Shown here piece by piece: positions 56,161 to 58,047 of a stretch of DNA of 64,000 nt. Where the stretch lies: the NCBI RefSeq assembly GCF_002879615.1, contig NZ_PNRF01000032.1, forward strand, positions 1 to 64,000, written 5' to 3'. Every line of letters starts with the position of its first letter. Within the stretch, counting starts at the first letter, position 1. The DNA comes from Billgrantia endophytica (GTDB lineage Bacteria > Pseudomonadota > Gammaproteobacteria > Pseudomonadales > Halomonadaceae). Under the pieces are notes generated by a model. It was not told the DNA's origin. It saw only the letters and a program-made list of their open reading frames with translations, and searched no databases. A program made the position numbers and the translations under genes.

Positions 56161-56763
56161 TCAGACCGGACCGCGAGCCTCGCGACGCAGCACGACGGTG
56201 AAGCCCAGGGCCTCCTCGTAGCTGTGGCTATCCAGTTTGGGCCGGTAATCGAGCAGAGCCTGCTGGATGGTGATCACCTTGTCTTCGGCGCTTTGTCCCT
56301 TGAAGTCCTCCTTGTCCAGCCTGAGGTCGTCCATCAGGGTGTTCCATACCGCGCCACCATCCTGGTGGGGTAGAAGGGTGGCGCTCACCCCATCGAGGTC
56401 GACCTTCAGGGCCTTGTCCAGGTTTTCCACGTAGAACAGCACGCTCACCTCGTCCGCCAGGTCGCCACGATAGCGTTCGATGAACAGGGGCAGCAGGGCC
56501 AGGTCGGTCAGGGCACCGGCGGCCGTCGTCAGTTTGCCGTCCTTGACCAGCAGGATGGCCTGCTTGACCACGGCCTTTGGTGGATGGCGGCGGCCGGACG
56601 AGTCGGCGATATCGCCTTCCTTCAGCACCAGATCGCCTCGAAACGCGTAGGTGTCGGCTTGAGTGGTGGCGCCATTGACGCTGACGTTACACAGCAGTTC
56701 TTGCTCTTGGTAGGTTTTCAGCAGCATGGGTGTGGGTCTCACGGTTGAGGATTCAACGTTCAC
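56161..56763 (-). CDS. Unknown protein paired with the SIR2-like protein in the nif island
   Basis: 200 residues if started at the GTG that overlaps the preceding stop (GTGA); 188 if started at the ATG at 56727. Mostly beta-rich: LLKTYQEQELLCNVSVNGAT, TYAFRGDLVLKEGDIADSSG, then helices (AVVKQAILLVKDGKLTTAAG, DEVSVLFYVENLDKALKVDL, TIQQALLDYRPKLDSHSYEE). No signal peptide, membrane span or cysteine cluster. I do not recognise the family. Translational coupling to the SIR2-like gene and the shared upstream -24/-12 promoter suggest both act together during nitrogen fixation. Confidence 0.75.
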   Translation of the reverse strand: MNVESSTVRPTPMLLKTYQEQELLCNVSVNGATTQADTYAFRGDLVLKEGDIADSSGRRHPPKAVVKQAILLVKDGKLTTAAGALTDLALLPLFIERYRGDLADEVSVLFYVENLDKALKVDLDGVSATLLPHQDGGAVWNTLMDDLRLDKEDFKGQSAEDKVITIQQALLDYRPKLDSHSYEEALGFTVVLRREARGPV

Positions 56764-57617
56764 GCCGTTTGGGCGGCGTTGGGTGTGGCAAGAGCGATCA
56801 ATCGTTCCCAGTCGCCCTCGATCAATTGCAGGTGCTTGCGTTCGCAGACCTTGCGTTCCTTCTCACTCGGTGCCTCGATCAGCGCCCAGCCGGCATCGTC
56901 GGCGGCGTCGTAGATCAGGTCGCTCATCACCATGCGCTCGGTGTCGCGATTGAAATGCATGCCGAGGAACAGGTAGCGCTTGCCGCGACGTTGCAGCTTG
57001 ATCCAGGCCGGCACGGCGAAGCCGCCCATCAGTTCGGTGATGTAGTCGACGAAGTCGGCATCGCTGGCGACGAAACCGGGTTTTGGCAGTGGCGTGCCAA
57101 GGGGTTTGAACAGCACCGGCAGGCTGTCGTCGACCTGCTCCAGGGTAATGCTGCGATACTCACCGCCGTCGAACTGGTAAAGCTCGAAACGGTAGTGATT
57201 GCCGGCGATACGCGCGGCGCCGACGATCAGCGTATGGGCGCGGTCGGCATAGCAGCGTTGCAACTGGGTGTCGCGGTTGCAGTCGATCACGTAGGGCAGC
57301 CGCAGGCTGGCCAGCCACTGGTGGAAGGGGGAGGGCGTCCAGTTGTCGCCGCCGTAGGTCTGGGTGAGAAAGCGCTCGATGAAGCTGCGGCCCTTCTTGT
57401 TCTCCAGATGCATGGCGGCGCGAGGAAATTCGTACATCAGCCGTGGTGACATTGGCTGACCGCCGGTCATGGCGAGAATCAGGCTCTCGCTGTCGGCGGG
57501 TATCGGCTGGCCGGAGTCGCGGTCGACCACGCCGCGTAGAACGCCGGGACCCAGATAGGGAACGGCGGTGCCGGCTTTGAGACTGGCAAGTATCTCTTTC
57601 ATCGAGCTGTTGTCCAC
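56760..57617 (-). CDS. SIR2-like domain protein, nif-associated
   Basis: 285 residues from a GTG with AGGAGAG five bases upstream (an ATG five codons later is possible). The SIR2_2-like pattern is visible but altered: dinucleotide loop AVPYLGPGVL (usual GAGxS), FHQWLASLRLPYVIDCNRDT (usual I-T-T-N-x-D; the N and D remain), VLFKPLGTPLP where catalytic enzymes have K-L-H-G, so the catalytic His seems lost, then ASDADFVDYITELM and RGKRYLFLGMHFNRDTERMV, which match the family end. It may bind NAD or ADP-ribose without strong hydrolysis. It is divergent from nifH, with its own sigma-54-type promoter. Function in nitrogen fixation is unknown. Confidence 0.75.
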   Translation of the reverse strand: MDNSSMKEILASLKAGTAVPYLGPGVLRGVVDRDSGQPIPADSESLILAMTGGQPMSPRLMYEFPRAAMHLENKKGRSFIERFLTQTYGGDNWTPSPFHQWLASLRLPYVIDCNRDTQLQRCYADRAHTLIVGAARIAGNHYRFELYQFDGGEYRSITLEQVDDSLPVLFKPLGTPLPKPGFVASDADFVDYITELMGGFAVPAWIKLQRRGKRYLFLGMHFNRDTERMVMSDLIYDAADDAGWALIEAPSEKERKVCERKHLQLIEGDWERLIALATPNAAQTA

Positions 57618-57670
57618 GGGACTCTCCTGCTTGCCTGCTGGTGGGTATGCGCGAGTTGACACAAGCTCAT

Positions 57671-57686
57671 CGCAATATGTGCGCCA
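57671..57686 (-). promoter_or_regulatory. Sigma-54 promoter of the SIR2-like operon
   Basis: Minus strand TGGCGCACATATTGCG: GG and GC ten bases apart, TTGC intact, three mismatches to TGGCACG-N4-TTGCA. It lies about 55 bases upstream of the GTG start. Confidence 0.65.
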
Positions 57687-57758
57687 TATCTGGGATAGGA
57701 GCGGTAATTCCTTGATAAGCCGGGTGTTAAAAGAAAGTTGCGGAGAGGCGGTAGCGGT

Positions 57759-57785
57759 ATGAATACGACAAATTGTCGTATTCAT
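57759..57785. repeat. 27-bp perfect palindrome in the nifH upstream region
   Basis: ATGAATACGACAA and TTGTCGTATTCAT are exact inverted copies around a single A. Its right half contributes to the NifA site at 57,774. It could be a regulator site or form a cruciform/hairpin. Confidence 0.7.
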
Positions 57786-57789
57786 CACA
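57774..57789. promoter_or_regulatory. NifA upstream activator site between the SIR2-like gene and nifH
   Basis: TGT-CGTATTCATC-ACA, perfect TGT-N10-ACA, about 170 bases upstream of the nifH -24 element and 90 bases from the -24 element of the SIR2-like gene. A candidate IHF site (TAAGTTGTTGAAA, 57,917-57,929) lies between it and the nifH promoter. Confidence 0.72.
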
Positions 57790-57958
57790 AGCCCAATGTG
57801 AGGGAAAAACGGATCGAAAAGTCTGCCGAGTGTTTGTTGGGTTGTCGCCATTACCACCGACATGGACAACCGTTTGTTATATATCCCACTCCCTGGTCAT
57901 CTTCTCTGATCATGGTTAAGTTGTTGAAAATAAAATAATTATTTTCTGTTTCGTAAGC

Positions 57959-57974
57959 TGGCACAAAGACTGCA
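57959..57974 (+). promoter_or_regulatory. Sigma-54 promoter of nifHDK
   Basis: TGGCACAAAGACTGCA: GG and GC ten bases apart, close to consensus, about 75 bases upstream of the nifH ATG. Confidence 0.88.
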
Positions 57975-58047
57975 TCCACTCGTTGCACAGGCCTGTTCGT
58001 GCCTACGGCCCACTTTTCATGTGGAAACGAAACCTGAGGACTCAATT

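Follow-up and report, generated by a model that had tools for sequence, protein, structure and literature searches.

pnfA, the SIR2-like gene divergent from nifH in Billgrantia endophytica, may encode a noncatalytic sirtuin relative that helps keep nitrogenase active

What is a gene for a SIR2-like protein doing back to back with nifH? We analyzed a window of 64,000 nucleotides from Billgrantia endophytica (contig NZ_PNRF01000032.1, positions 1 to 64,000, forward strand), in which a preliminary description made from the letters alone had placed two coupled minus-strand genes between nafY and nifH, one for a SIR2-like protein and one for a partner, and had proposed that both belong to the nif regulon. 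The open reading frames of the window bear out this arrangement, with rnf and nafY genes among the neighbors, and an Rfam scan of the window returned a tRNA as its sole match. The locus is laid out as follows.

55354 to 56073, plus strand: nafY-like gene, convergent neighbor, with DIMCO_N and Nitro_FeMo-Co domains
56161 to 56727, minus strand: partner gene (PST1324-like by position), 188 aa from a conserved ATG
56760 to 57617, minus strand: pnfA orthologue by sequence and gene order, encoding a 285-aa protein with a predicted SIR2 fold; GTG start at 57617, stop codon at 56760-56762
57672 to 57686, minus strand: predicted -24/-12 (sigma54) element of pnfA, TGGCGCACATATTGC
57774 to 57789, no strand: putative upstream activator site for NifA, TGT-N10-ACA, lying between the two divergent promoters
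57959 to 57973, plus strand: predicted -24/-12 element of nifH, TGGCACAAAGACTGC
58048 to 58929, plus strand: nifH, divergent neighbor of pnfA

Elsewhere in the same genome, downstream of nifENX, the nif cluster holds a number of small genes that have no family name (L145:7106-8867), one of them TPR-like by eye.

The preliminary description could match the SIR2-like gene to no described nif gene. This was mistaken: judged by synteny and by the P. azotifigens orthologue named in the A1501 study (PMC2820453), its orthologue in Pseudomonas stutzeri A1501 is pnfA (PST1325). Over residues 3-277, the protein of P. azotifigens DSM 17556 (L013) shares 76% identity with the window protein. As in the window, pnfA of A1501 is divergent from nifH and of similar size, has the same promoter layout, and is followed by PST1324 with nifY2/nafY beyond; A1501 differs in an extra gene, PST1323, between nifY2 and PST1324. 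In the parts of PMC2820453 covered, the gene is termed diazotroph-specific, and homologues are named from P. azotifigens, A. vinelandii, Azoarcus BH72, Dechloromonas, and Halorhodospira. PST_1325 also appears as a "SIR2 family protein" in a list within PMC11332353, and a passage of PMC6053447 gives it as 9-fold up in an Escherichia coli strain carrying the nif island. As to other naf names, nafU was ruled out as pnfA, since the section available of PMC8907163 describes a 13.8-kDa (His-tagged) inner-membrane protein, and A. vinelandii nafD, for which a fitness effect on acetate is given in part of PMC12811062, could not be mapped to pnfA or its partner.

Through this identity, two of the earlier proposals turn out to have been addressed in A1501. 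For regulation, the sections of the 2010 paper by Yan et al. consulted here describe a predicted promoter and a TGT-N10-ACA site, report PST1325 as 9.7-fold and PST1324 as 26-fold induced under fixation, and establish by qRT-PCR in mutants that pnfA expression requires nifA and rpoN (PMC2820453), so that membership of the nif regulon had already been reported for the orthologue. A role in nitrogenase function is likewise supported there: a non-polar pnfA mutant had 23% of wild-type nitrogenase activity and was complemented, with nifH mRNA unchanged; the defect was seen microaerobically, nitrate-supported anaerobic N2 fixation was lost, and activity under anaerobic conditions without nitrate was about that of the wild type (PMC2820453). 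Neither pnfA nor its membership of the nif regulon is new, and our searches of open-licence papers found no later study of the PnfA mechanism.

Does the window itself carry such a control region? The -24/-12 pattern occurs at 5 sites in the window, against 1.23 expected, and TGT-N10-ACA at 12, against 8.45 expected, the latter not being significant alone. We compared 24 nifH-pnfA intergenic regions, those of the window and of 23 other loci (L023 and L024, where nifH lies several kb away, were left out). A GG-N10-GC element directed toward pnfA, matching the consensus at 7 to 9 of 10 bases, was present in all 24, and in 23 of them it lay 35-54 nt before the pnfA start as projected from the window protein (215 nt in L022). 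One or two TGT-N10-ACA sites were likewise present in every region; the window has one, and 13 of the 24 regions have two. When each region was shuffled, 0 to 25 of 200 shuffles matched the observed -24/-12 score and 0 to 40 of 200 the observed number of activator sites. Since shuffles of single regions can reach the observed values, the case for the promoter rests on conserved position, and this conservation upholds the -24/-12 element and activator site that had been assigned to pnfA. From sequence, then, pnfA is predicted to be divergent from nifH with a common NifA-sigma54 control region.

To place PnfA with respect to nitrogen fixation more broadly, we called it with a profile of 19 sequences and called nif genomes by a nifD model match over the cut-off. 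PnfA was found in 26 of 31 nifD+ genomes and 2 of 338 others in a class sample, and in 15 of 41 nifD+ genomes and 2 of 357 others in a phylum sample, these being raw counts that ignore kinship, from samples that overlap in some genomes. The four PnfA genomes outside the nifD+ set were an 81%-complete genome (G079), one with a split nifD (G240), one in which the nifD model matched only below the cut-off (G425), and one that combines a match of this kind with a nifD stub containing a stop (G603). Conversely, 5 of the 31 and 26 of the 41 nifD+ genomes had no PnfA, so fixation is possible without it. Around close members of the family, 18 of 22 stretches matched nifA, nifB, nifD, nifE, nifH, nifK, nifL, or nifN; the stretches without such a match (L093, L106, L110, which has nifV only, and L127) speak against nif linkage. 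Around members of the distant branch, nifB was matched in 15 of 16 stretches and some nif gene in all 16. A nifL match over the cut-off was seen in 22/24 close-PnfA, 2/19 distant-PnfA, and 5/31 PnfA-less genomes, so that close PnfA, given this co-occurrence with nifL (7/50 for the others searched), may be a marker for a particular type of nif cluster.

The family extends onto plasmids, where 72 records from six genera were matched (Rhizobium, Sinorhizobium, Mesorhizobium, Bradyrhizobium, Methylococcus, and Paraburkholderia), 69 of them from the first three. The gene order is nifA, nifB, 4Fe-4S protein, nifZ, nifT, SIR2 on R. etli p42d and nifS, nifT, SIR2, nifB in Bradyrhizobium sp. BWA-3-5, while in Methylococcus sp. 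EFPC2 nifT lies a few genes from the SIR2 gene and a BolA gene comes after. When three proteins were searched with the PnfA profile, the nifT-linked ones of R. etli and Bradyrhizobium matched at E 1e-31 and 5e-31, and among the best 20 matches the rhizobial nifT-linked SIR2 proteins were 23-28% identical to the window protein. Similar placements are on record in the portions seen of two papers: R. capsulatus Rcc03262 shares its operon with nifB1, nifZ, and nifT and went undetected in nifA mutants (PMC6925177), and a figure legend puts a SIR2-like protein after nifT in Rhodovulum (PMC9412634). By its operon position, as given there, Rcc03262 would belong to the distant PnfA branch.

The partner needed more revision than pnfA. 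Its frame does end at 56161, but the overlapping GTG at 56763, which gave a 200-residue product, is not conserved; the ATG at 56727 (188 aa) is, and we place the start there because the aligned relatives begin at this position. Of the coupling that had been described, the operon-like spacing stands, with 2-47 nt between the pnfA stop and the aligned partner start in 23 loci, but a stop-start overlap is not conserved across them. Judging from this spacing, pnfA and the partner are probably on one transcript here. The two genes form a pair in Pseudomonas, Azotobacter, and some relatives, the partner coming directly after pnfA in 23 of 25 loci from Pseudomonas, Stutzerimonas, Azotobacter, Azomonas, some gammaproteobacterial MAGs, and Sessilibacter, all with nifH within the locus, but not in most other genomes. 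An obligate pair was therefore rejected, as elsewhere the genes are mostly apart or only one is present; in L096 the partner sits two genes behind pnfA. The partner was found in 5 of 219 genomes of the class sample, all five nifD+, and in 20 of the 74 genomes with nif or PnfA (10/24 close-PnfA, 6/19 distant-PnfA, and 4/31 PnfA-less nif genomes), and 11 of 16 stretches around it matched a nif structural, assembly, or regulatory gene. It is a separate nif-associated family, confined to nif genomes as far as tested. Its predicted structure (pLDDT 93) had no match at E 0.001 or better in Foldseek searches of PDB and BFVD. The weak structural neighbors include nucleases and restriction enzymes, but the best VIA Z was 3.5, and we do not claim a nuclease. 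At the C-terminus, R-G-P is invariant in 18 aligned sequences (the window and 17 others) and is followed by a terminal Val or Ile; this end may be a functional tail.

What kind of protein, then, is PnfA? Pfam SIR2_2 (PF13289) scored it at 19.7 bits (E 0.00098), below the gathering cut-off of 24.5, and a sequence search of solved structures gave nothing useful. The AF2 model (pLDDT 85, pTM 0.86) found DSR2 as its best Foldseek match (E 5e-10), and its VIA Z was 19.5 with KomBC, 19.1 with ThsA, 18.4 with DSR2, and 12-13 with classical sirtuins. Since the top VIA match aligned 241 residues over model residues 1-278, the full chain, we are confident that PnfA, as modeled, has a SIR2 fold over its whole length. 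PnfA would thus have its fold in common with the SIR2 domains of DSR2, ThsA, and KomC and with classical sirtuins, to which the Pfam link is faint, and it differs from them as a stand-alone, nif-linked domain that mostly lacks the catalytic His. The published proposal was a similarity to UspA/ETF-alpha, with no SIR2 fold mentioned in the parts of the paper covered (PMC2820453); the UspA/ETF match is short, spanning residues 176-240, and falls inside the predicted SIR2 fold.

That the nearest solved folds are defense proteins raises the prospect that a phage-defense SIR2 gene has ended up in the nif island by accident, a possibility that the preliminary description had itself named as an outcome that would count against it. 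We consider such an origin very improbable. PADLOC returned no match, PHROGs none for PnfA, and a search of 50,697 phage records none either; the plasmid matches are confined to the six genera above, the nif linkage runs across many families, and expression in A1501 is NifA-dependent, as described in the sections of PMC2820453 cited above.

For residue counts, we aligned 49 close and 16 distant PnfA members, leaving out three of the 19 distant-PnfA genomes (G402, G624, and G150). Sirtuins use an Asn and a His as their catalytic pair. The earlier reading of the active site held up: the window protein keeps N114 and D116 and has K-P-L-G where K-x-H-G is expected, so that of the pair the Asn is present and the His is replaced by Leu. 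Among the 49 close members, G23, N114, D116, P172, G174, D186, D188, and G219 are identical throughout, and the catalytic His position is occupied by Leu in 24, Met in 22, His in 2, and Val in 1. Trp replaces the catalytic Asn in all 16 distant members, 5 of which have His at the catalytic position. The SIR2 proteins encoded after nifT on R. etli p42d and in BWA-3-5 also have Trp for the Asn, unlike the window protein, as does the plasmid-borne relative from Methylococcus; at the His position these three show Tyr, His, and Leu. The two close members holding both Asn and His are the Azotobacter loci L010 and L011, and the other 47 are without the His. From these residues, neither branch is likely to carry out standard sirtuin chemistry, a statement that is least secure for the Azotobacter members. 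The pocket loop lacks its last Gly in 8/49 close and 3/16 distant members; a loop so degenerate means that nucleotide binding itself may be lost. The alignment also contains long near-invariant stretches such as SDADFVDYITELMGGFA, which are not known to have a catalytic role.

These residues bear on whether PnfA could be an enzyme, an NADase, a deacylase, or an ADP-ribosyl transferase, that acts on NifH in place of DraT and DraG. The preliminary description had pointed to DraT as an NAD-dependent modifier of NifH and had seen no draTG here, and indeed no DraT or DraG match was obtained in the organism's own genome, by a first search whose controls were all empty as well. With further genomes, the DraT model matched in 42 of 74 that have nifD or PnfA, and the DraG model gave only below-cut-off matches, in 5 of 14 control genomes. 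DraT was present in 11/24 close-PnfA, 5/19 distant-PnfA, and 26/31 PnfA-less nif genomes, and is thus rarer with PnfA (16/43) than without it, across clades that are unevenly represented. The remark on DraT was relevant in that pnfA often lies downstream of draT elsewhere, but the coexistence in 16 of 43 PnfA genomes weakens any view of PnfA as a plain DraT replacement. DraT and DraG belong to other families (PF07357 and PF03747) and adjoin pnfA in some other diazotrophs; like them, PnfA may act on nitrogenase after translation. The SIR2 fold, the draT neighborhood elsewhere, the empty searches in this genome, the on-off switching that A1501 is stated to show without DraTG (in the part of PMC2820453 covered), and the two Azotobacter members with an intact pair would all suit an enzyme. 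We nevertheless regard catalysis as quite unlikely, given the absence of the His in nearly all close members, the replacement of the Asn in all distant and three plasmid-borne members checked, and the genomes in which DraT and PnfA occur together.

We also analyzed what surrounds pnfA in the 24 close loci outside the pseudomonad-type arrangement (L023, L024, L091-L110, L127, and L128). Neighbors were named by BLAST to the window genome's own genes, and some names were confirmed by NCBIfam; the others are putative. In 10 of the 24 loci, draT lies upstream of pnfA on the same strand within 4.3 kb; the two frames are 54-432 nt apart in L104, L105, L107, L108, and L128, and in the other five further open frames intervene, some on the opposite strand. 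Six loci have draG on the other side of pnfA, oriented toward it (Pfam-checked in L103), which places pnfA between draT and draG. As a control, we inspected 16 stretches from PnfA-less genomes: draT is beside nifH in 15 (the exception, L155, is a short contig on which nifH is not seen) and directly faces draG in L150, L153, L159, L162, and L165. Since draT is beside nifH there too, its adjacency to pnfA may partly reflect a common site at the side of nifH. In 3 of the 11 close-PnfA genomes with DraT (G249, G240, and G369), pnfA is not near draT, and no literature link between SIR2 or PnfA and draT was found among the matches listed, by title or abstract start.

A second recurrent neighbor is a hemerythrin-like gene, downstream of pnfA on the same strand in 10 of these 24 loci (L023, L024, L091, by BLAST only, L093, L096, L099, L102, L103, L104, and L105); it adjoins pnfA in six and is separated from it by one or two small genes in four. 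All seven such proteins scanned pass the PF01814 cut-off, and the one from L023 had no Pfam match at 1e-5. This arrangement suggests an oxygen-related operon. A superoxide dismutase gene lies near pnfA in four loci (L093, L094, L095, and L105; Pfam-checked in one). In L093-L095, rhodanese-ankyrin, glutaredoxin, and BolA genes follow; in L093, all but the glutaredoxin gene were Pfam-checked. The neighbors of pnfA elsewhere thus handle ADP-ribose (draT and draG) or, probably, oxygen (hemerythrin and superoxide dismutase).

How might such a protein support nitrogenase? The account that we favor, tentatively and on the basis of sequence and a structural model, is that pnfA is NifA/sigma54-driven and that its product has a SIR2 fold without catalysis, binds a nucleotide, and keeps nitrogenase active in respiring cells. 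PnfA would have kept the fold and several pocket-type residues while losing the catalytic pair in nearly all members; it would bind, but not turn over, NAD(H), ADP-ribose, or a related nucleotide, and would act post-transcriptionally on nitrogenase or its electron supply, the outcome being a nitrogenase that stays active while cells respire oxygen or nitrate. Nearly as likely is a structural helper, a SIR2 scaffold that binds nitrogenase, the Rnf path, or an assembly factor and has no nucleotide ligand. The mostly lost catalytic pair, the degenerate loop, the long near-invariant stretches, and the rnf and nafY genes nearby in the window would all be consistent with this scaffold, as would the electron transfer or oxygen protection proposed for PnfA in 2010 (PMC2820453, in the part covered). 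Yet G23, N114, D116, and G174, each kept in every close member, are more than a bare scaffold seems to need, and the UspA/ETF similarity behind the 2010 proposal is the short match already placed inside the predicted SIR2 fold.

Extending the nucleotide-binding account, PnfA and its rhizobial relatives could be nif-specific pseudo-sirtuins that sense NAD(H) or ADP-ribose and couple nitrogenase to the respiratory or redox state; without DraT, as here and in A1501, they would carry the on-off switch, and where draT is present, often with pnfA encoded behind it, they would cooperate with DraT. This wider idea is speculative, and we hold it to be rather doubtful. The earlier observation is confirmed and its interpretation partly supported; new here are the predicted SIR2 fold, in which the catalytic pair is mostly lost, the draT/hemerythrin neighborhood, and the nifT-linked family on rhizobial plasmids. 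With these, pnfA now yields a testable idea of how nitrogenase may be kept active under respiration, one that also bears on the DraT-free on-off switching stated for P. stutzeri in the part of PMC2820453 covered.
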